Positions 11,620 through 56,652 of a DNA stretch of 56,652 nucleotides are shown here, piece by piece (the stretch's first letter is position 1; every line of letters starts with the position of its first letter). The translations under genes were made by a program, and so were the position numbers. Below the pieces are notes generated by a model that ran no database searches, was not told where the DNA came from, and saw nothing but the letters and a program-made list of their open reading frames with translations. Source of the stretch: a virus; IMG/VR virus record IMGVR_UViG_3300037010_000803, positions 1 to 56,652 of that record. One strand, given 5' to 3'.

Positions 11620-11822
11620 CTGCCACCTCCCTCACTTTTCACCCCTGGCTTTTGCTTCACACCCGCATATTCACCCAGAAGGCAATCCCAAAGAACGCCA
11701 AAGGCTTCCATCAGCTCCGCCTCACTACTACCGCCCTGCTCATAATCAAGCAGTACATGCTCCACTCTCGCAAGGTCCCAGCCCTTGCGTCCCGCGCTTC
11801 CCTTTGCATTATTCCGCTTCAT
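11616..11822 (-). CDS. Small protein after the helicase (unit A only)
   Basis: 68 aa from MKRNNAKG, overlapping the helicase stop by 14 nt. The middle is an acidic helix (RVEHVLLDYEQGGSSEAELMEA is its region, residues about 18-38). Unit B has an unrelated 67-aa gene at the same place (45,910-45,707). A helicase-associated role is possible only from context. Confidence 0.65.
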   Translation of the reverse strand: MKRNNAKGSAGRKGWDLARVEHVLLDYEQGGSSEAELMEAFGVLWDCLLGEYAGVKQKPGVKSEGGGR

Positions 11823-13149
11823 CTGCCACCTCCATTCCAAAGTCTTGTTGCTCTAGCCACTCCATGGTGTTCTTGCGGAAGGCCATCCGCAGCATTCCTG
11901 TTGGGCCGTCCTGATTCTTGGCAAGAATGATTTTAGCGTCCTGGACTGGCGGCCCGTTGCGCTTGTTAACATCCCATCGGTGCAGTAGCAGAACGCCCGT
12001 CCCTTTTTCTTCGAGCGTCCCGGTCTCCTTCAGGTCCGCCAAGGTAGGTAGGTCGTCTTCTCCCAGCCCTTCAGCGCGCCTGTTCAATTGCGCAGCTAAC
12101 AGCACCGGCACGCCCAGCCTTTGCGCCAGAGCATCAAGTTCCCAAACGGTCTCCGCCGCCTGTTCCCGCAAGGAGCTAAGCTTTTGCGGCGACCTGACAA
12201 GCTGGAAATAATCAATCGTCACAAGGTCCAGGCCGCCCATAGCAGTCTGAGCCTGCTTCGCGTAGTTTTCAATCTCAGGCGGTGATATTCTCGGCTGTGC
12301 CACCATATACAAGCCATAACCCGATAGCTCTTCGAGAGCTTTCGAGTAACGCCGTTGCTCTTCCGGCGTCAAAGGCACCTTGCATTCCAGAGGGCTCTTG
12401 ACGCGGCTCAACGCCAAGCCCGTCTGTTGCGCCAGCATTCTCCACACGTTTCTACGCGGTCCCATCTCTAGCGCGAAATGGCACACCTTCTTCCCAGCCT
12501 TCAGATTGCGTAGAATCAGCCCTAACATGAAAGAGCTTTTCCCAACCTGTGGCCGGGCGGCAACAATCCAAAAAGAGCCGAGCTCCATCCCTAGCGGTAC
12601 CAGCTCGTCAATAGACGGCAAGCCAAAATGAATCCCTTCAGGCGCGCCACCTTTTACCGCTTCGTCCATTTCATGCTTCACCAATTCAAGAGCGGTCCAG
12701 GCAGTCTTCCGCTTCTTTTTGCCCTGCGAACGTACCACATGCAGGTACTTCTCGGTCTTTTCCAGCAATACGTCAGGGTCAAGCTCCGTATTTGCGGCCA
12801 ATCGCGTCGAGATGGCGTTTATATGCCTGCGCATCAAGCCATTCTGAATAATCTCGCAGTATCCCTGCGCCTGGTCCGCCGTCAAGAACGGGACGCCTTC
12901 CATGAGAGACGCCAAATAGCCGGGTGGCCCCATCTGCTTTTTCCGCTTTTCCAGGTCGTTGTACACGGTGAGGTAATCCGCCGCCGCGCCGAGGCCAACC
13001 ACGGACTCGAAAATGTCCCTATGTACCGGCAAAAGAAAGCTCTTCGGCTCTAAGGTGGCCATTGCCACCCTTCGGCTGGTCTCACACCGGCAAAGAATCG
13101 CTCCGAGTAACGCTCGCTCCGCTTCTAACACAAACGGCTCTTCGGCCAT
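11809..13149 (-). CDS. dnaB: Replicative DNA helicase, DnaB family (unit A)
   Basis: 446 aa, near the normal length of phage DnaB helicases. The N-terminal helical domain spans about residues 1-110, followed by a linker and a RecA-like motor from about 165. Walker A is ARPQVGKSS near 198, Walker B is LVTIDYFQL near 309, and AAQLNRR near 355 fits a downstream RecA-fold motif. It unwinds DNA at the phage fork and would be loaded by the initiator encoded immediately upstream. Unit B has a full-length homologue with clearly divergent sequence, more so than the neighbouring genes. Confidence 0.93.
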   Translation of the reverse strand: MAEEPFVLEAERALLGAILCRCETSRRVAMATLEPKSFLLPVHRDIFESVVGLGAAADYLTVYNDLEKRKKQMGPPGYLASLMEGVPFLTADQAQGYCEIIQNGLMRRHINAISTRLAANTELDPDVLLEKTEKYLHVVRSQGKKKRKTAWTALELVKHEMDEAVKGGAPEGIHFGLPSIDELVPLGMELGSFWIVAARPQVGKSSFMLGLILRNLKAGKKVCHFALEMGPRRNVWRMLAQQTGLALSRVKSPLECKVPLTPEEQRRYSKALEELSGYGLYMVAQPRISPPEIENYAKQAQTAMGGLDLVTIDYFQLVRSPQKLSSLREQAAETVWELDALAQRLGVPVLLAAQLNRRAEGLGEDDLPTLADLKETGTLEEKGTGVLLLHRWDVNKRNGPPVQDAKIILAKNQDGPTGMLRMAFRKNTMEWLEQQDFGMEVADEAE

Positions 13150-13160
13150 AGGATTCTCCT

Positions 13161-14006
13161 TCAGTTAAGCAGGTCGTAAATCTGCTTCTTCGGCGGCTCG
13201 ACTTCGTCTTCCCAACAGGCTCCCTTCAGCCAACGTTCAGGGTCCTTGTAGAACTGCAATTCTCTACCGCTCTTCTTCAGACGCTCAATGGCCGCCAGAA
13301 TAACTTCCAAATCCGGCCGTGGGCGTAACTTCACCCATTCACGGTAAGCATTCCGCTTGGCCCGTTTCTTAGGGTAGGCTTTCCAGAATCGTTCAAAGTC
13401 TTCTGGGTAGGTGAAAACCTTCGATTCAGAACGGGCTTTCTTCTCGTTGCCGTTCCTCATTTGCTCCGGGAGCACTCCCGGAGTAGTCCCGGAGTAGTCC
13501 GGGAGTTGACCAAGAGTAGTCACGGCGATAGCCGGGACTACTCCATTCTGTTCCGTTCCGTTCTGTTCTGTTAAGTTATGTTTAGTTATGTTATGTTGTA
13601 TAACTACCTTATTAAGGTCCTTAATAAGGTCCTTATTAACCACCTTATCAGACGCCCATCGGCGCTGCATTCCGACCTTGCCGCCTTGCGCCATCTTCCC
13701 GCGTTGAGCAAGCAGTTCTTGGCGCTTTTCATGGAGCCATCGGTTGCGCCGTTCACCGTTGCCAAGGTCCACGCTGAATACCTCCTTAATAGCAGGATAT
13801 AAGGTGCTTATATCCACCTTATCCTTGCCAATGTCGCAGCGGCATATATGGGCCAGTTTGGCCGGGTCATCCGGGATGCTCTCATTCTGCCACTGCCATA
13901 TCAAGAGCAAGAAAACGCCGCCTATTTCTGCGGTGCTTAAAAAGGCGAAACGGCTGTCGTTGATAAACTCGCCAGGGTAGATGGGGAAAAAGGGCGGGGC
14001 TTTCAT
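13161..14006 (-). CDS. Replication initiator with DUF1376-like N-terminus (unit A)
   Basis: 281 aa with SD AAAGGAGG. Residues 1-95 match the DUF1376-type domain of phage replication proteins (PFFPIYPGEFINDSRF, then a winged-helix-like segment). The middle (about 125-190) is low-complexity Asn/Lys/Gln-rich because its DNA contains repeats. Residues about 200-280 (FERFWKAYPKKRAKRNAYREW) are nearly identical to unit B. The layout resembles the lambda O arrangement: an initiator gene with the origin inside it, next to the helicase. The N-terminus would bind the origin and the C-terminus contact the helicase. Confidence 0.8.
   Translation of the reverse strand: MKAPPFFPIYPGEFINDSRFAFLSTAEIGGVFLLLIWQWQNESIPDDPAKLAHICRCDIGKDKVDISTLYPAIKEVFSVDLGNGERRNRWLHEKRQELLAQRGKMAQGGKVGMQRRWASDKVVNKDLIKDLNKVVIQHNITKHNLTEQNGTEQNGVVPAIAVTTLGQLPDYSGTTPGVLPEQMRNGNEKKARSESKVFTYPEDFERFWKAYPKKRAKRNAYREWVKLRPRPDLEVILAAIERLKKSGRELQFYKDPERWLKGACWEDEVEPPKKQIYDLLN
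13465..13505. repeat. CCGGGA/GGAGTAGTCC repeats inside the initiator gene
   Basis: Overlapping copies of GGAGTAGTCC and CTCCGGGA lie in tandem, giving repeated Pro/Gly/Thr codons in the low-complexity middle of the initiator. They lie about 110 bp from the AT-rich TAAGGTCCTTA sites and could be part of the same origin. Confidence 0.55.
13613..13635. repeat. Putative origin iterons TAAGGTCCTTA x2 (unit A initiator)
   Basis: Two exact copies of the near-palindrome TAAGGTCCTTA (13,613-13,623 and 13,625-13,635), flanked by partial copies ACCTTATTAAGGT and ACCTTATCA, next to an AT-rich run (13,560-13,610) made of short TTATG-type repeats. Two more exact copies occur outside the gene at 21,153-21,186. 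An origin inside the initiator gene is the natural reading. Confidence 0.7.
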
Positions 14007-14039
14007 AAGCGCCTCCTTTCACGGAATAGAGCGGCCATG

Positions 14040-14264
14040 TTACGCCTCGCTCTTCTTCTTCGCCTCATAAGAAACGCAGTGCGCAGCGCTTTCCAGGGCG
14101 TTTATTTTGCGGTATCTGATAGGCTGGCGCTGGTCTATAGATTGCGGGATGCCTATATCCGCGAGCCCGTTGGACAGGACACGCGCCACTAGACACGTGC
14201 CTACAGGGTATCCGCCGCTAAAATCACCGTGCACACAAGTCCCACAAGTTCTTCTCTTGCTCAT
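14040..14264 (-). CDS. Small Cys-motif protein, first gene of the initiator operon (unit A)
   Basis: 74 aa from MSKRRTCG with SD GGAGG. The pattern CGTC (residues 7-10), C near 22 and C near 62 with a C-terminal YEAKKKSEA suggests a small metal-binding fold. Unit B carries two paralogues (48,392-48,616 and 48,076-48,309) with the same CGxCVHG opening. It is the first gene after the structured leader. Function unknown. Confidence 0.75.
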   Translation of the reverse strand: MSKRRTCGTCVHGDFSGGYPVGTCLVARVLSNGLADIGIPQSIDQRQPIRYRKINALESAAHCVSYEAKKKSEA

Positions 14265-14407
14265 TGGAGCCTCCAAAATGATGCCCAGCCCGCCGGTTGG
14301 CGGCCCGGCGGGCCAGGGCTGGGGACGGGCAGTGATACTGGTAGCTGTCTGTCCCGTTCTCGGATTTTGGTTGAGCCAGTATCATCTTTGCGCTCCCGCC
14401 AGAGCAT
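14265..14407 (-). ncRNA. Structured 5' leader of the initiator operon (unit A)
   Basis: About 140 nt between the promoter and the first well-supported gene. A long GC-rich stem-loop is at 14,284-14,323: CCCAGCCC pairs with GGGCTGGG around an inner CCGCCGG/CCGGCGG pairing. In unit B (48,636-48,675) the two changes in the stem keep pairing only as G.U in the minus-strand RNA, which argues for an RNA structure. A 48-codon reading frame from 14,406 to the SD exists here but is not preserved in unit B. Confidence 0.5.
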
Positions 14408-14726: not shown

Positions 14727-15089
14727 CTACACCGGCTCAACATCCACGGTAAAGTAGCCTCGCTCTTCCGCCGTCCAGCGTTTCTGCGTGTGAGTGTCCC
14801 AGACGCCGGAATCGTCGCCGTAAATGGCATCCAGAACGGCCTTGACCAGATTGTCTAAATCCGGCTTTTGTTGATGCGGCTGCCCGTCATACAATGCCCT
14901 CTTCTTCCGGCTCCAGGACTCTGGCATCGGAAGGTAGAAAACGATTGTAGCTCCCGCTTCCGGCACCCACACTTTGGCGCGCTGGCATTCATTGCAGAAC
15001 TGCCAGTAGCGCATGACGCTGGGACGCTTGGCCCATTTGTCCCGTTGCGTCATGCGCGGCTTCGGGCAGGGCTCAATGTTGTACCTCAC
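14727..15089 (-). CDS. rusA: RusA-family Holliday junction resolvase (unit A)
   Basis: 120 aa from GTG 15,089, which overlaps the upstream stop (GTGA) and has SD GAGGTGG. The acidic metal-binding centre is KPDLDNLVKAVLDA (Asp77, Asp79, Asp87) followed by DD near 92. RusA enzymes cut four-way junctions, here to resolve replication/recombination intermediates before packaging, and it fits with the Erf recombinase in the same operon. Nearly identical in unit B. Confidence 0.88.
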   Translation of the reverse strand: MRYNIEPCPKPRMTQRDKWAKRPSVMRYWQFCNECQRAKVWVPEAGATIVFYLPMPESWSRKKRALYDGQPHQQKPDLDNLVKAVLDAIYGDDSGVWDTHTQKRWTAEERGYFTVDVEPV

Positions 15090-15340
15090 TTGCCACCTCG
15101 TGGCGCTTTGAGCATCCGCGCCAGCTTGTCGGCTGCTATGCAAGCGATATTCCAGCGTACGACTCGCCACCTGTCAGGCGGGTCTATAACCACGGCAGGT
15201 AAAGTAGCAATGCGGTCATAGCTAGCATCCATGGTTTGGTTGAACAGCATCCTCGCCGCGTTGGGCCATTTCGCCCATCGCTCTTCGGAAACGCCGTAAA
15301 GATTCTCCGGGCTTTTCGGTAAATCCCATTGCGTTTTCAT
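15086..15340 (-). CDS. Unit A-only small protein before rusA
   Basis: 84 aa, Trp-rich (KTQWDLP, RWAKWPNAARMLF, DRWRVVRWNIA) with a basic C-terminus; translationally coupled to rusA by GTGA overlap. No counterpart in unit B and no recognised family. Confidence 0.7.
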   Translation of the reverse strand: MKTQWDLPKSPENLYGVSEERWAKWPNAARMLFNQTMDASYDRIATLPAVVIDPPDRWRVVRWNIACIAADKLARMLKAPRGGK

Positions 15341-17350: not shown

Positions 17351-18034
17351 TCAAAAAGGGATGCCCGTGTCGTTCTTGGGCGTTCTGCGTAGTATTTCAG
17401 CTTCGAGCACGTCCAGATTGCGCTTGTTGTCCTTGGCGTACTTTCCTTCCGGCTCTTCCGCCAGTTTCTTGCGGTAGAAGTCCCGATACCACAGGACGCT
17501 CTCATTGCTCAGTGCCGACAACGGCGTGCCTTTGAGTTTTCCCATCGGCACTGTCCATTCTCCACGGTCTTCTTTTTGCGCGGCGCTGTCGGTGTCATTC
17601 TCGGAGCGCCCTTCGGCGGCCTCGCCGTCATCATCCTCGTTCTCGGCGGCAAGCCCGATTATAGACTGCCAGCCATAGCGCCGCAGATACAAGATGGCGC
17701 TTCCGTCAGCCTGCGGTGTCCGGCATGGAACAAATGGGCCACCGCCTTTTGGCTCCTTGCCGGGGACGGTACTGTTTATCTCGCTAATCCATTCGCCGGA
17801 CTCGTGGGCCAACATCGTCAAGAGAGTCACCTTCTCGCCCTCGGCGCTTGGAAACTGCATAATGGCGAGCCCGTATTTGTTGAGCACGGGTCGAGAGACG
17901 GCGATCACCTCCGCCATATCTGCGTAGTGGGAGTGGTAATACGGGTTCTCCGCCTTCTTTTTCGCGGCACCCATCTCCGTCTGGGCCTTGACCAACGCTT
18001 TCACTAGTTCGCTAATCGTCTCACTGCGATTCAT
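17351..18034 (-). CDS. erf: Erf-family single-strand-annealing recombinase (unit A)
   Basis: 227 aa. The N-terminal 130 residues show the Erf pattern: NPYYHSHYADMAEVI near 28, then RPVLNKYGL, an aromatic/Gly beta core, and AILYLRRYGWQSIIGLA. After an acidic linker (ENEDDDGEAAE, about 142-165) a C-terminal helical segment follows. Erf anneals complementary single strands and supports phage recombination and circularisation. Overlaps the upstream coiled-coil gene by 14 nt. Confidence 0.87.
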   Translation of the reverse strand: MNRSETISELVKALVKAQTEMGAAKKKAENPYYHSHYADMAEVIAVSRPVLNKYGLAIMQFPSAEGEKVTLLTMLAHESGEWISEINSTVPGKEPKGGGPFVPCRTPQADGSAILYLRRYGWQSIIGLAAENEDDDGEAAEGRSENDTDSAAQKEDRGEWTVPMGKLKGTPLSALSNESVLWYRDFYRKKLAEEPEGKYAKDNKRNLDVLEAEILRRTPKNDTGIPF

Positions 18035-20794: not shown

Positions 20795-21012
20795 GTCGCC
20801 GTCGCTTCGACGCTGGCGAGTTCCCCAGGCTCGCCCGCAGCCATCTGGCCGCGCCCAATTAACGTGCCGCCTATCCACACGGAGGCCGGGGGCAACGTGT
20901 GGCTTAGACTTGGATTGACAAAGAGAAAGCCCTGGGGCTGTCGGACCCAGGGCGTGGACAGTCGCAGGGACGCGAGTAGCTGCGACGACTTGTATTCAAT
21001 TTTCGTTCTCAC
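20788..21012 (-). CDS. First early gene, unknown function (unit A)
   Basis: 74 aa from GTG with SD AAAGGTGG six bases upstream, about 40 nt after the early promoter start. Basic N-terminus, LRLSTPWVRQPQGFLFVNPS, then a beta-rich segment (PPASVWIGGTLIGRGQ) and an acidic end. The PWVRQPQGF segment is the only part retained near the right edge of the window (56,600-56,652). Function unknown; first-expressed genes often take over host processes. Confidence 0.6.
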   Translation of the reverse strand: MRTKIEYKSSQLLASLRLSTPWVRQPQGFLFVNPSLSHTLPPASVWIGGTLIGRGQMAAGEPGELASVEATATA

Positions 21013-21057: not shown

Positions 21058-21086
21058 AATATAACGCCTTTTGCGGCGTTTGTCAA
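21058..21086 (-). promoter_or_regulatory. Main early promoter with palindromic spacer
   Basis: Minus-strand TTGACA (21,086-21,081), 17 bp, TATATT (21,063-21,058). The spacer is itself an inverted repeat, AACGCC-N6-GGCGTT (21,063-21,080), a good candidate operator. Two iteron clusters lie immediately upstream (21,107-21,197). Confidence 0.85.
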
Positions 21087-21106: not shown

Positions 21107-21143
21107 GTTAACAAGAGTTAACACGAGTTAACAGGCTGTTAAC
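21107..21143. repeat. Iteron cluster 1: GTTAAC x4, 10-11 bp phased
   Basis: GTTAAC begins at 21,107, 21,117, 21,127 and 21,138. Three copies are GAGTTAACA. The same hexamer with 10-11 bp spacing occurs four times inside the unit B initiator gene (47,669-47,705). Phasing on one face of the helix fits cooperative binding by one protein. Confidence 0.75.
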
Positions 21144-21152
21144 AGGAAGTTA

Positions 21153-21197
21153 TAAGGTCCTTATAGCCACCTTAGTAAGGTCCTTATAGGGACCCTA
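21153..21197. repeat. Iteron cluster 2: TAAGGTCCTTA x2 plus TAGGGACCCTA
   Basis: Exact TAAGGTCCTTA at 21,153-21,163 and 21,176-21,186, then the related palindrome TAGGGACCCTA at 21,187-21,197. The same 11-mer occurs twice inside the unit A initiator gene (13,613-13,635). The cluster lies between the last late gene and the early promoter. Confidence 0.75.
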
Positions 21198-21228
21198 TAG
21201 GTGTGCTATAGCAGACCCATTGGGTGTA

Positions 21229-21864
21229 CTAGAGCGTGCTGGAGTCGTTACGGACGGCGAATAACTGCGTTGCGGAATAGGTGGTGGAAGGGACTTTCGC
21301 GGCTTCTTTCGCGGCGGCGTCGTAGAGGTCCTGTGGCGTGAACGTGTCCCTGTCAGGCACTTCCAGCGCCCAGCCCAAGTCTCCACTGCCAACGCCAAGA
21401 GCGTTAGCCATGAGGACCATGTCGGTGAGAGCGACCAGGACTTCTTCACTGCAAAACTCGTGGCGGCGGATGGGATTGGGGACTTGGCGATTGAACAGTC
21501 CGGCAACCCAGTTGAGCGGGAGAATGACGGCGAGATTCACGACCGAAGCCCAGGCGTAGCTTTGCCCTACTCGGTCTTCAGCGTTGCGGATGGCGAAATT
21601 GATTGCCTGTTGCGGCTGATTCGGGCAGAATACGGCGAGGTCACCGCGTTCCCATTCGGCGCGGTAGTCGGACAACGGGTGGCGCTCAATATGATCCCGC
21701 GCTTCCTGAGAGAGGGGGCCGTTCTCATTCACGGCCACAATCCACCCGGAGTGGTTGTACCGGCCACGGGAAAAGAATTGAATGGCGCGAGAGATAAATC
21801 CCGTCTCGTGGACGGACCAGAAACAGCCCGGTTGAATCTCTCCCCACTTCGTGATTCGTCTCAT
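21229..21864 (-). CDS. Permuted papain-like (YiiX/NlpC-P60-type) hydrolase, candidate endolysin
   Basis: 211 aa. The order His-before-Cys (YNHSGW with His38, EFCSEEV with Cys138) is that of circularly permuted NlpC/P60 enzymes such as YiiX. QPGCFWSV and AIQFFSRG fit the N-terminal strand and helix. A hydrophobic stretch at about 105-122 may be buried or membrane-associated. It is the last gene of the late module, after holin-like genes, so peptidoglycan peptide cleavage for lysis is the best inference; lipid or other amide substrates are known for the family. No signal peptide. Confidence 0.62.
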   Translation of the reverse strand: MRRITKWGEIQPGCFWSVHETGFISRAIQFFSRGRYNHSGWIVAVNENGPLSQEARDHIERHPLSDYRAEWERGDLAVFCPNQPQQAINFAIRNAEDRVGQSYAWASVVNLAVILPLNWVAGLFNRQVPNPIRRHEFCSEEVLVALTDMVLMANALGVGSGDLGWALEVPDRDTFTPQDLYDAAAKEAAKVPSTTYSATQLFAVRNDSSTL

Positions 21865-45910: not shown

Positions 45911-47243
45911 CCGCCGCCTCCATTCCGTAGTCTTCGCGCTCTTCCCACTTGAGCACCGCCCTGTTGTATGTCATGTCTAGCACACCCGTCCCGCCGTCTT
46001 GTTGTTTCGCCAGAATGATTTTGGCCGGTGTCCGAGAAGCATCCCAGCGGTCTATATTCCAACGGTGAAGTAGCACAACACCCGTTGCCTTCTCTTCGAG
46101 CGTCCCGCATTCCTTCAGGTCGGCCAGCGTTGGCAACTCGTCTTCTTTGTTGCTCTCCGCGTTCCTGTTCAATTGCGCCGCCAACAGTACAGGGACCTTC
46201 ATCCGTTGCGCCATCGCGTCTATGGCCCACACGGCCTTAGCTCCTTCTTCCCGCAAGGTGTTGAATCGTTGAGGCGAGCGAATCAGCTGGAAATAATCCA
46301 AGACGATTAAATCTAATCCGTCCATGCGCTGTTCCGCTTCCACGGCCTTGGCTTCGATTTCCGAGGGCGAGGCCGAAGGCATAACGGCCATAACGTAGTT
46401 GTCCACTCCCAGCCGGTCGTTAATGGCCGCCGAAAGACGACTCATTTCCTTGGCGTCCAACGGCTTTTTGCAGTTGGTCGGATTCTTCACCCTTGCTAAC
46501 GCGAGCCCAGTCATATGAGTCAAAAGCCGCCAAGCGTTGCGTTCAAGCCCCATTTCCAGAGCGCAGTGGAAGATTTTCTTCTTGCCCCGTAGATGGTGCT
46601 CTATGATGCCGGTGAGAAAGGTCGTTTTACCGACTCTCGGCCGAGCGCCCACCACCCAAAAGCTCCCAGGCTCCATTCCGTATTCGACCTTGCCGTCCAG
46701 GGAGGGCAGCCCGAAGTCCAATCCCAATGTTTTGCCCTTCCGCCGCTCCAGGTAGCTCTCCATGACCGCCGAGGCGATTTCCGGGCCGGTGAACATAGTC
46801 TTGCGCGCTTCCACCCGCTCCTTGACCTTGTGGATGTACTGAGCGGCCTTTTCTGCCAGTTCCCCAGCCGGAGCGATTCCCTGCGAAGCATCCGCCAGTT
46901 TCTGGCCCACCCGTTCAAGATGACGCCGCGCCGCTCCGTCCAGGACAATGCCACAATAGTTTCTCGATTGCCGCGTGTCGAGGTCAGGCAGCCCTTCCGT
47001 GAGACCGGCCACCCAGCCCGCGCCACCCACCTTCACCATTTCACCGGAGCGCGCAAGTTCACGGCTCACGGTCACCAAATCGGCGTTGGCACCCAGGGTC
47101 AAAGCTGTCTTGAAAATAATCGCCAGCGCGGTAGAAGGCATGTCTTCAGGCCGTAGCGTCTCAAAGGCGACGCTTTTGGCGGCCTTGCAGTTCAAGAGAA
47201 TTGCTCCCAAAATCACTTTAGCAGCTTCGATTGAGTCATCCAT
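45900..47243 (-). CDS. dnaB: Replicative DNA helicase, DnaB family (unit B)
   Basis: 447 aa. Walker A GARPRVGKTT near 198, Walker B LIVLDYFQLI near 311, AAQLNRN near 357. It differs from unit A across most of its length apart from the motifs, and starts within the initiator gene (31-nt overlap). Each initiator may therefore be matched to its own helicase, although the helicase-facing end of the initiators is conserved. Confidence 0.92.
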   Translation of the reverse strand: MDDSIEAAKVILGAILLNCKAAKSVAFETLRPEDMPSTALAIIFKTALTLGANADLVTVSRELARSGEMVKVGGAGWVAGLTEGLPDLDTRQSRNYCGIVLDGAARRHLERVGQKLADASQGIAPAGELAEKAAQYIHKVKERVEARKTMFTGPEIASAVMESYLERRKGKTLGLDFGLPSLDGKVEYGMEPGSFWVVGARPRVGKTTFLTGIIEHHLRGKKKIFHCALEMGLERNAWRLLTHMTGLALARVKNPTNCKKPLDAKEMSRLSAAINDRLGVDNYVMAVMPSASPSEIEAKAVEAEQRMDGLDLIVLDYFQLIRSPQRFNTLREEGAKAVWAIDAMAQRMKVPVLLAAQLNRNAESNKEDELPTLADLKECGTLEEKATGVVLLHRWNIDRWDASRTPAKIILAKQQDGGTGVLDMTYNRAVLKWEEREDYGMEAADGE

Positions 47244-48073
47244 TTCGGGTCTCCTGGCATGTGGTAGTTAGGGTCGTCGAAGTTTTGGTACGGGCATTCC
47301 TTCGGCGGCTCAACTTCGTCTTCCCAGCACGCTCCCTTCAGCCAACGTTCGGGGTCCTTGTAGAACTGCAATTCTCGCCCGCTCTTCTTCAGACGCTCGA
47401 TAGCCGCCAGAATAACTTCCAAATCCGGCCTTGGGCGTAACTTCACCCATTCACGGTAAGCATTCCGCTTGGCCCGTTTCTTAGGGTAGGCTTTCCAGAA
47501 TCGTTCAAAGTCTGGTGGATAGATGAAAGGCTTTGGCTCTGAGCGACGTTTCTTTGCATTGACCGAAACTTGACCAAGAGTAGGACAGGCGTCAGCCTGG
47601 CCTACTCCGTTTCTCTTTGCTTCTGCTTCTGCTTCTGCTTCTGCTTGGGCTAACTGCTGTTCACAAGTGTTAACAGGTGTTAACAAAGTGTTAACAGGTG
47701 TTAACGACTCTTTACGTGCCCGTTCCCTGCGGTCGGCCATGTACTGGCGTGCATACTCCCGACGCTGGCTCTCGTCTCGTAACTGCCTGTATTTGGTGTA
47801 GTTAAGAATCAGATAGCCGCCGTCAACGCGCTCGATTCTCCGGCCTTCATACTCCATGGTTCGAGAGTCAGGGTCGGGCTCTTGAAACTTTTGTAAAGCC
47901 TGTAAACAAATGTTAACATCCACCCTCGCCCTGTTAGCAATGCCCGGCGCGGCGGCCAGGACCATGCCGTCTTGATTCGCCATCAAGAGCATGGTCATCC
48001 ATACGACGCGGGTATCCGACGATTCCGCCCAGATGCTGGAGTCAAGCAGAGATTGAAATGCTTTTACGTACAT
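47213..48073 (-). CDS. Replication initiator with winged-helix-type N-terminus (unit B)
   Basis: 286 aa from MYVKAFQSLL with SD GGAGAAG. Residues 1-110 form a winged-helix-like domain of phage replisome organisers (SSIWAESSDTRVVWMTML, ILNYTKYRQLRDESQ) unrelated to the unit A N-terminus. The middle has an Ala-Glu repeat and iteron-encoded LTPVNT repeats. Residues about 205-270 (FERFWKAYPKKRAKRNAYREW) are the same as unit A. A domain swap with retained helicase-side end is the simplest explanation. Confidence 0.8.
   Translation of the reverse strand: MYVKAFQSLLDSSIWAESSDTRVVWMTMLLMANQDGMVLAAAPGIANRARVDVNICLQALQKFQEPDPDSRTMEYEGRRIERVDGGYLILNYTKYRQLRDESQRREYARQYMADRRERARKESLTPVNTLLTPVNTCEQQLAQAEAEAEAEAKRNGVGQADACPTLGQVSVNAKKRRSEPKPFIYPPDFERFWKAYPKKRAKRNAYREWVKLRPRPDLEVILAAIERLKKSGRELQFYKDPERWLKGACWEDEVEPPKECPYQNFDDPNYHMPGDPKWMTQSKLLK
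47669..47705. repeat. Putative origin iterons GTTAAC x4 inside the unit B initiator
   Basis: GTTAAC begins at 47,669, 47,679, 47,690 and 47,700; a fifth lies at 47,912. Flanks are mostly GTGTTAACAGGT. Spacing of 10, 11 and 10 bp is the same kind of phasing as at 21,107-21,143. Confidence 0.72.
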
Positions 48074-48075
48074 GG

Positions 48076-48309
48076 CTACTTCTCCTTCTCCTCTTTCGCC
48101 CTGTAAGCCGCGCAATGTGCTGCGCTAAAATGGGGAGCTATCTCAACGAAGTCGAGCGGCTCTTCCGGGCTAACTACCATCGGCAAGGGCATGAAGCTCA
48201 GGACGTGCGAGAGGAAACGTGCCGCTCGGCATTGACCAACATTGCTGCCCTCTTGGGTCTTGCTAAAGTCACCGTGTACACAATTTCCACAAGTCTTCTT
48301 CTTGCTCAT
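48076..48309 (-). CDS. Small Cys-motif protein, second paralogue (unit B)
   Basis: 77 aa: MSKKKTCGNCVHGDFSK, C near 27, AAHCAAYRAKEEKEK at the end. It is closer in its CVHGDFS and C-terminal pattern to the unit A protein 14,040-14,264 than to its neighbour paralogue. ATGA overlap with the micropeptide upstream. Confidence 0.75.
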   Translation of the reverse strand: MSKKKTCGNCVHGDFSKTQEGSNVGQCRAARFLSHVLSFMPLPMVVSPEEPLDFVEIAPHFSAAHCAAYRAKEEKEK

Positions 48310-54691: not shown

Positions 54692-55204
54692 TCAGGAATC
54701 CTTAACAACTGGCCCAATCACCTCGCGAAACTCATACAACTTGGCGCAGTATTTCACGGCGTCCTTCCAGGGCAGATGGAACTTGCGGATTGTCGGAAGC
54801 GCCGGGGCTTCAGGGTATCTGCCGGAATCCCACAACTGGCGCAAGAGCTTCTTCGAGAAAATGAATAGATGCCGGTAGTTCCCTTGAATATAAAGCCAAG
54901 TGTTGTCATCGCGCAAAATCCCCGAAGGCGTCCACGACGGCATATCTGCGCGGCTCTTCTCGTATAACTCTATGCTTAGATTCCCCGTACCATAGCTTCC
55001 CGGCCCGCTGCGTTCATCGAACTTGATTTCAAATCCCTGCAAGTTCTCGCCGACCTCTATTTGGTATTTCATGCTACACAAGTTTTGTAGCACAATATGG
55101 TCCCGCGCCAAGGTAGAGCATACGAAATCCTGGAACGCAAGGCCGGTCTGAAATGACTCCGGGCGGCGCTCGTTTGGGTAGCTAGGCTTCGTTGCCGTAA
55201 ACAT
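54692..55204 (-). CDS. Nuclease-like protein paired with ParB-MT-A70 (unit B)
   Basis: 170 aa from MFTATKPSYPNE, SD GGAGG, overlapping the methyltransferase 3' end by 23 nt. VGENLQGFEIKFDE (near 52-65) resembles the GxExK strand of PD-(D/E)xK nuclease folds, and DNTWLYIQGNYRHLFIFSKK fits the following beta-strands. Located behind a DNA methyltransferase, it could be a restriction-type partner, but the motif alone is weak evidence. In unit A only its last 12 codons remain. Confidence 0.6.
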   Translation of the reverse strand: MFTATKPSYPNERRPESFQTGLAFQDFVCSTLARDHIVLQNLCSMKYQIEVGENLQGFEIKFDERSGPGSYGTGNLSIELYEKSRADMPSWTPSGILRDDNTWLYIQGNYRHLFIFSKKLLRQLWDSGRYPEAPALPTIRKFHLPWKDAVKYCAKLYEFREVIGPVVKDS

Positions 55205-56348
55205 CCCATCCCTCCACTTTCGTTCTGGCGAATAGCTCAACACGCTTCCCGCTTGGGTAGAGCGTGTCAATGATGGCCCGGAATGTCTCCGGCTTCTTGC
55301 TGTGCTCAGTCCGCTCTTCACTGACTACGCTGTCAAAGAGCTTGCGAACTTCCGGCTGGCAACTGCCCTTGACGCATATCAAGAGGAACTCATGCCTCAC
55401 GCTGTTGTAGTGGCCCATGTTATGCTTGATTTTATCCCACACGAAGGAAGACTTGTACTTGAATCCCCACGCCTTCACGACCTCGAAGGCTTCTTCGAGA
55501 ATAGGACTCGTGGCCCACAGAAACAAGACGGCGTTGTCTTCAGTGATTCCGCTTATAGGAAGCGCGCAGATTTCAGCTAGGGACATGACGGGGTAGTAAT
55601 CCCTTGGCTCTGTTGAGCCTTCCGGCATTGTATTCCCATAAGACCACGGCGGGTCAGCATAAATCACCCTGTACTTGGCATCGGGCAGGCTGGCCTTCTT
55701 CGTGATTTCTTCAGCCTTTTCTTGCCGTAGCACTTCCGTGAGCTTGGCATCCCCATTCAGGATGGCCTTTGCTTTCTCCGGCGCTTTTTCTAGCAGCGCC
55801 GCCGCCTTTACTATCGCGGCCCTTGGTGGTGCAACTCCGGCCACCACCTTCTTTTCAATGGACTTGTCCACGGCCTTGGTCTTTTCCACTGCTTCCGCGA
55901 ATTGCCCGGCGCGCTTGACCGTTTTAGGGTCCACGCCAAACTCATCGGCCAGCCGCTCGGCCTGATTCACCGGGGGGACATTTTGTCCCCCCGATTTTTG
56001 ATTTCCATGGCCACCATCATGTCTCTTCGTTCTGTTGTAGCACCGGCCCATGAGTAGATGGCGCTGGTCAGGCTTGAGATTCCGGCGGCCCAACTGATTC
56101 CGGTCAATCCAATCCATGGCCGCGTCCCTGTCAGCGCAATCCACTTCCGTGATTTCGTATTCCAGCCCGTGCTTTTTTGCTATCTCTAGCCTGTTGTGGC
56201 CGTCCAGAAGAATCCATTCACCACGCCAAACTTTCACGGCGTCCAGAATACCGTCGCGTAGAATGTTAGCTTCTAGCTGTGAATACTCTTCATCGGTCAA
56301 GGGTGGAATCAAGGCTTTGAACTCAGGGTCAATACGAATCGGCTCCAT
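55182..56348 (-). CDS. ParB-MT-A70 fusion, m6A DNA methyltransferase (unit B)
   Basis: 388 aa. ParB-N domain about 1-95 with LLDGHNRLEIA at 47, a helical KorB-like linker about 95-215, then an MT-A70 methyltransferase: YADPPWSYG near 230 and LFLWATSP near 273. MT-A70 enzymes make N6-methyladenine. The ParB part may direct it to sites or DNA ends. It is the second gene of the early region here and has no counterpart in unit A, which instead has the HNH-linked methyltransferase. Confidence 0.88.
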   Translation of the reverse strand: MEPIRIDPEFKALIPPLTDEEYSQLEANILRDGILDAVKVWRGEWILLDGHNRLEIAKKHGLEYEITEVDCADRDAAMDWIDRNQLGRRNLKPDQRHLLMGRCYNRTKRHDGGHGNQKSGGQNVPPVNQAERLADEFGVDPKTVKRAGQFAEAVEKTKAVDKSIEKKVVAGVAPPRAAIVKAAALLEKAPEKAKAILNGDAKLTEVLRQEKAEEITKKASLPDAKYRVIYADPPWSYGNTMPEGSTEPRDYYPVMSLAEICALPISGITEDNAVLFLWATSPILEEAFEVVKAWGFKYKSSFVWDKIKHNMGHYNSVRHEFLLICVKGSCQPEVRKLFDSVVSEERTEHSKKPETFRAIIDTLYPSGKRVELFARTKVEGWDVYGNEA

Positions 56349-56652
56349 CTCGGTCTCCTTTTTTTCTTCAAGCTACACCGCCCCCAATCCCTAATCATAA
56401 CTACGAAGCAATGCAGTAGCAGAATCAGTCTAGCGCGGTACAGATTCTATGATTTTGGACCAGGACGCTGGGGACGGTGCAGGATCAACTACCTGCTCGT
56501 TGCCTGGATTTGCTAGACAAGCCGTACGTTTTGGGCTCAGGAGACATACGGACTCAGACACCCGCCGATTTCTCGGACTGCATTTTATGTCGTGGGAAAT
56601 GAAGAAGCCCTGGGGCTGTCGGACCCAGGGCCTGAACAGTCGCGGTGAAAGG
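56349..56652. other. Upstream early region of unit B, cut by the window edge
   Basis: About 300 bp with no securely supported gene. A minus-strand frame 56,652-56,430, cut by the edge, begins with RLFRPWVRQPQGFF, matching the PWVRQPQGF segment of the unit A first early gene, then diverges completely before a TAG; it may be the end of that gene. The stretch 56,607-56,631 is an 8-bp inverted repeat GCCCTGGG/CCCAGGGC encoded by the same codons. The promoter and iterons of unit B would lie beyond the edge. Confidence 0.4.

Follow-up and report, generated by a model that had tools for sequence, protein, structure and literature searches.

RESULTS

Repeats of two initiators lie together above a predicted early promoter

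We find that one intergenic region of a viral record, at 21107–21199, carries two types of repeat, one found inside the gene of one replication initiator and the other inside the gene of a second, related initiator. Judged from its sequence, this region may be a second site, distal to the in-gene repeats, through which initiators control the promoter of the early (replication) operon; such a site would have two specificities, and we hold this reading at about even chances. The window (the whole record analysed, 56,652 bases) has all of its main genes on the minus strand and comprises two related stretches, unit A (1–34524) and unit B (34525–56652), which are mosaic, with ∼90% identity across much of the length that they have in common. 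Together they correspond to two related phages joined in register, ∼1.6 genome equivalents in all; a single molecule, a concatemer of mixed origin or a join made in assembly could each account for the two units being on one contig. Unit B stops just before its own early promoter, and its early region is off the contig. We found no integrase among the proteins examined.

The B-type half of the region consists of four copies of GTTAAC (21107, 21117, 21127 and 21138; spacing 10, 10 and 11 bp; array span 21107–21143), all with intact cores, and the flanking preference GNGTTAACA is common to most GTTAAC units. The A-type half (21151–21199) includes two copies of TAAGGTCCTTA, at 21153 and 21176 (span 21153–21186), and actually contains three dyads, not two: TATAAGGTCCTTATA at 21151–21165, AGTAAGGTCCTTATA at 21174–21188 and TATAGGGACCCTATA at 21185–21199, together with a half-site, CCACCTTA. 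No strand is assigned to either type of repeat, here or in the initiator genes. The region sits between the end of a tail/lysis-side gene (21229–21864, minus strand) and a predicted, near-consensus early promoter, TTGACA-17-TATATT, on the minus strand (21086..21058), with the repeat sites 21–111 bp above its −35 box. Thus, the first-pass annotation, which had placed four GTTAAC and two TAAGGTCCTTA copies 20–110 bp above the early promoter and matched them to repeats inside the unit B and unit A initiator genes, respectively, was right in its coordinates, in its spacing and in both matches (47669–47705 for B; 13613 and 13625 for A). In the early region, AT-richness is confined to the sites themselves, with no separate AT-rich tract; the GC skew has no sharp sign change at 21 kb, and the region had no match in the ‘phages’ collection.

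The match of the early-region repeats to both initiator genes is not due to chance. When all hexamers were considered across the whole window, arrays of at least four copies at 10–11-bp spacing were formed only by GTTAAC (TGTTAA and GTGTTA, which overlap GTTAAC, were counted as the same arrays), and in only two places, the early region and the unit B initiator gene, while 30 block shuffles yielded no such hexamer array; chance is excluded on these grounds. Similarly, TAAGGTCCTTA with at most one mismatch gave 9 strand hits, compared to 0.19 expected. A simple assembly switch within the region was also considered and rejected: an A-to-B switch would put the A-type sites first, and the GTTAAC array is on the A-leader side.

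Two other elements were noted at the early promoter. The promoter spacer holds a dyad, AACGCC-GCAAAA-GGCGTT (21063–21080), which is not kept in the relative G001 and is possibly another operator. Downstream of the promoter, a 39-bp leader with an inverted repeat (GCCCTGGG...CCCAGGGC) occurs at 20927–20965 and 56605–56643 and is kept in unit A, unit B and G001.

The two initiators differ in N-terminus and in in-gene repeats

The unit A initiator (281 aa; 13161..14006, minus strand) has a DUF1376-like N-terminus, which scores below the Pfam cutoff, and an O/primosomal-type C-terminus. The unit B initiator (300 aa; 47213..48115, minus strand) is nearly identical to it over the C-terminal ∼75 aa, and has a different, winged-helix N-terminus. 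This N-terminus was modelled with a pLDDT of 81 and resembles CRP-type domains with a Z of ∼8.5 and an rmsd of 1.7 over 65 residues; Foldseek alone gave no significant hit for it, and the winged-helix reading rests on VIA-align together with the order of helices and wing. For the full-length A initiator, AlphaFold gave a model of low confidence (pLDDT 45).

Inside the unit A gene, TAAGGTCCTTA occurs twice at 13613..13635 (at 13613 and 13625), and a third A-type copy, TATAAGGTGCTTATA with the half-site CCACCTTA of the early region recurring beside it, lies at 13798..13820, where a TAAGGTCCTTA copy with one mismatch is found at 13800. The iterons adjoin a tract (13566..13615, no strand assigned) that at 78% AT is the highest 50-mer of the window and is a probable DNA-unwinding element; a GTTATGTT-rich AT tract adjoins the iterons both in unit A and in a more distant relative, G002. 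Inside the unit B gene, four GTTAAC copies lie at 47669..47705 (47669, 47679, 47690 and 47700; spacing 10, 11 and 10 bp), with an extra single GTTAAC at 47912; no separate AT-rich tract stood out in that gene. Beside the iterons of all three of the initiator genes compared is a 30-nt hairpin, GAGTAG...CTACTC (13514–13543 in A, 47578–47607 in B and 11963–11992 in the relative G003), of about −20 kcal/mol; stem changes between A and B preserve pairing, and no further copy of the pattern is present in the window. CCCGGAG motifs are also repeated, at 10–11-bp spacing, in the linker of the unit A gene (13466–13510).

The N-terminus and the in-gene repeats are exchanged as a cassette

Units A and B differ over a stretch that in unit A spans 13449..14243 (minus strand), with flanking DNA alike. 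This cassette covers the linker with the iterons, the N-terminal domain and most of the upstream gene (14040–14276); the C-termini of the two initiators are ∼91% identical at the nucleotide level and the N-terminus is not common to both. In G003, the A version of the cassette (N-terminus and iterons) lies beside a B-type helicase gene (86% nucleotide identity); therefore the DNA-binding domain and the iterons travel together, and the sequences point to their exchange between related phages as one cassette.

To compare repeat type with N-terminus, as the first-pass annotation had proposed, we examined relatives of both initiators. TAAGGNCCTTA is found in the linker region of three A-type genes, those of unit A, of G003, whose initiator is 82% identical to that of unit A, and of G002, in which the N-terminus is 58–60% identical. 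In G002, seven exact dyads are spaced by multiples of 24 bp; over 14 bp, the early-region dyad is the same as their consensus, TATAAGGTCCTTAT. The relatives of the unit B N-terminus (L009 and L154–L161) carry hexamer arrays of ∼10-bp period at one linker position after the N-terminal domain, and the hexamer differs by member: GTAGAC in L009, TGGACA in L154, TGTCAC in L155/L156, GTCGAA in L157 and GTGACG in L160 are clear arrays, those of L158 and L161 are weaker, and L159 is cut by the contig end. Thus, the in-gene repeat type tracks the N-terminus, and independent variation of the two was not seen for the in-gene sites; this correlation across relatives is what would be expected if, as may be the case, the N-terminus sets the iteron type. 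When viral contigs were searched with nothing but the two N-termini, or with the lysis-side gene, only the same few relatives came back. In the ‘phages’ collection, nothing matched the B type and the only hits were distant DUF1376 proteins; three of their genes were read, and TAAGGNCCTTA was absent from all three. The one isolate with paired TAAGGTCCTTA (L121) had no match to the A initiator and was dropped.

A relative keeps the A-type half of the distal region only

G001, a relative of 25 kb, is identical to the window at 79 of 80 bp across 21148–21227, the single mismatch falling on the base at the centre of the third dyad. Coding DNA beside this A-type block is ∼90% identical, so that the block is well preserved, though change-free runs of similar length are also found in neighbouring genes. 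G001 is without the four GTTAAC copies; the stretch is replaced by one degenerate unit, TGCAAAATCA, and the array is cleanly absent, by whole units. The promoter hexamers are kept (TTGACT/TATATT) and the spacer has diverged. The G001 contig stops just before the initiator; because the final 230 bp of the contig match A-type at 98% and B-type at 58% identity, we infer by linkage that its initiator cassette is A-type.

Since G001 keeps the A-type half and is without the GTTAAC array, only the A-type half is conserved between the two; the A-type half would thus be a conserved control site, and the GTTAAC array a variable gain or a remnant matching the B initiator. The proposal that one region carries the sites of two initiators therefore needs qualification: both types are indeed the in-gene types of the two initiators and lie just above the promoter of the operon expected to carry the initiator, but the two halves are not a fixed unit.

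Second clusters are found in two other B-type lineages

L155/L156 and L160 each carry one more pair of the hexamer that is found inside their own initiator gene; the pair sits immediately before the start codon of that gene, a position at which no pair arose in block shuffles. This is as expected for an autoregulatory operator, which from its position the pair may be. No such upstream cluster was found in L009, L154, L157, L158 or L161. Of 54 initiators, the majority of which have only the C-terminal domain in common, ∼34 have in-gene repeats (some of low complexity) and none had a convincing outside cluster by an exact-word search, which was insensitive and missed L009, so that absence here is weak evidence. 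The second site is so far an occasional feature.

DISCUSSION

Possible roles of the distal site

In the reading that we prefer, the A-type initiator, presumably a product of the early operon, most likely binds its own dyads 100–150 bp upstream of the start point. The dyad-bound initiator would tie early transcription to the level of initiator, an autoregulation of the kind that the first-pass annotation had suggested, and in this bound state it might also influence forks that pass the site, a role that has been proposed for oriR of SPP1. The GTTAAC array would be the equivalent site for a B-type initiator, gained or left over. Both specificities would be present because the binding domain and the iterons exchange as a cassette while the distal site is unlinked to that cassette and adapts afterwards, by gain or loss of repeat units. 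We infer the binding, the continuity of the operon, the direction of regulation and the history of gain and loss. The unit A initiator gene is ∼7 kb downstream of the early promoter. Simple occlusion or repression of the promoter does not fit, because the sites are above the −35 box, not over it; activation, looping or another role would be needed.

Other readings bear either on what the bound initiator does or on what the GTTAAC array is. It is possible, and tentatively a serious contender, that the array is only a remnant of a B-type ancestor or partner, idle in the present A-type phage, and that the A dyads alone work. The lack of the array by whole units in G001, with the A half kept, favours this, as does the exchange of the N-terminus and iteron cassette among these phages, but four intact GTTAAC cores are unexpected in an old remnant. 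We consider it unlikely that the bound initiator acts mainly on replication, at an SPP1-like second start or at a fork barrier, that is, a block triggering the switch from theta to concatemer replication. SPP1 gp38 binds oriL inside its own gene and a distal intergenic oriR ∼13 kb away (PMC6316719, PMC3485210); the spacing here is 7.5 kb, and the neighbouring genes encode an SPP1-like toolkit, a DnaB-type helicase (11809..13149, the helicase of unit A, in the same operon direction), a RusA-type resolvase (14727..15170) and an ERF-type single-strand annealing protein (17351..18034), all on the minus strand. However, oriR of SPP1 has an AT-rich unwinding region; in our early region AT-richness is limited to the sites, compared to an in-gene A cluster that adjoins the most AT-rich 50 bp of the window, and the skew at 21 kb argues in the same direction. 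The full second origin of the first-pass annotation is weakened on these grounds; a fork barrier would need no unwinding element, and the origin or barrier reading as a whole is thus weakened only. Both the remnant and the origin readings are compatible with the distal control site that we favour, and the remnant differs from it only on the present function of one half.

The array might instead be the operator of another regulator, of phage or host, with the unit B match convergent on a common hexamer. Indeed, GTTAAC arrays at 10–11 bp are found in unrelated viral contigs (L083, L087, L089, L093, L103 and others) beside terminase, integrase or regulator genes; thus GTTAAC alone is no proof of initiator binding. 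None of the 38 contigs examined for their GTTAAC triple arrays matched the B-type N-terminus, and the arrays stand in differing contexts. We nevertheless regard another regulator as improbable: in the window, such arrays are confined to the two places, most of their units share the flank GNGTTAACA, and no transcription factor was recognized among those early proteins of unit A that were compared to Pfam. More improbable still is an interference element, also raised by the first-pass annotation, in which a competing B-type phage would have its initiator titrated or blocked by the array in mixed infection. There are lambda precedents (PMC4488673, PMC3349717), and the A and B types on one contig probably co-occur in the sample, but four sites on a phage genome are few compared to multicopy plasmids, and there is no sign in these data of selection for interference. 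There is also a slim chance that the phage's own initiator and that of a relative both have working sites in the early region, such that these phage types sense or disturb each other's replication start in mixed infection and accept either cassette without losing early control.

Relation to known systems

One of the closest known layouts is that of the Bacillus phage SPP1. As far as the sequence can tell, the window resembles it in having repeats inside the initiator gene and a second, distal, intergenic cluster of the same repeats, the A-type cluster being kept in G001, and in the helicase, resolvase and annealing protein among the early genes. It differs in that an AT-rich unwinding region is found only at the in-gene A cluster, not at both, and in that the distal site lies directly above the early promoter and has sites of two initiator types. 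In lambda, the N-terminal half of O binds the iterons, and phage replication is arrested by copies of the origin placed ectopically (PMC4488673); the replication module that is exchanged may be rep-lambda or rep-P22, and oop with the iterons blocks lambda-type but not P22-type replication (PMC3349717). The in-gene iterons beside an AT-rich tract of O/ori-lambda have a counterpart in the unit A gene, and G002 is similar, but a second O-binding cluster at the early promoter is not described in PMC4488673 or PMC3349717. The likeness to lambda covers layout and module exchange.

The two-site arrangement has other parallels. The plasmid Rep proteins of autoregulated iteron replicons bind the iterons of the origin and also operators at the promoter from which they are themselves expressed, be it that of a single gene or of an operon. 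This layout appears to be shared by L155/L156 and L160; in the window, the sites differ in lying above the −35 box of a predicted early promoter, ∼7 kb from the initiator gene. Phage P4 has one initiator with two distant clusters of the same site, ori and crr, both of which are needed for replication, but its initiator is of a different protein family. Iterons inside the initiator gene, initiators with two sites and iteron replicons under autoregulation are each already known; what is new is the mixing of two specificities at an unlinked site close to a promoter, where relatives can be seen to differ by gain or loss.

In-gene origins let phages swap the DNA-binding domain of the initiator and its target in one block, and the price of this exchange is that a second site elsewhere does not travel along. 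The locus is a testable case of early control adapting after a change of initiator specificity, and of whether mixed sites allow cross-talk between relatives. The B-type family, with different hexamers at one linker position, offers a natural series for the recognition code of a winged helix.

The start of the early region also varies in gene content: two genes at 54692–56348, one of which encodes an MT-A70-type methyltransferase, are in unit B and G001 and are absent from unit A.
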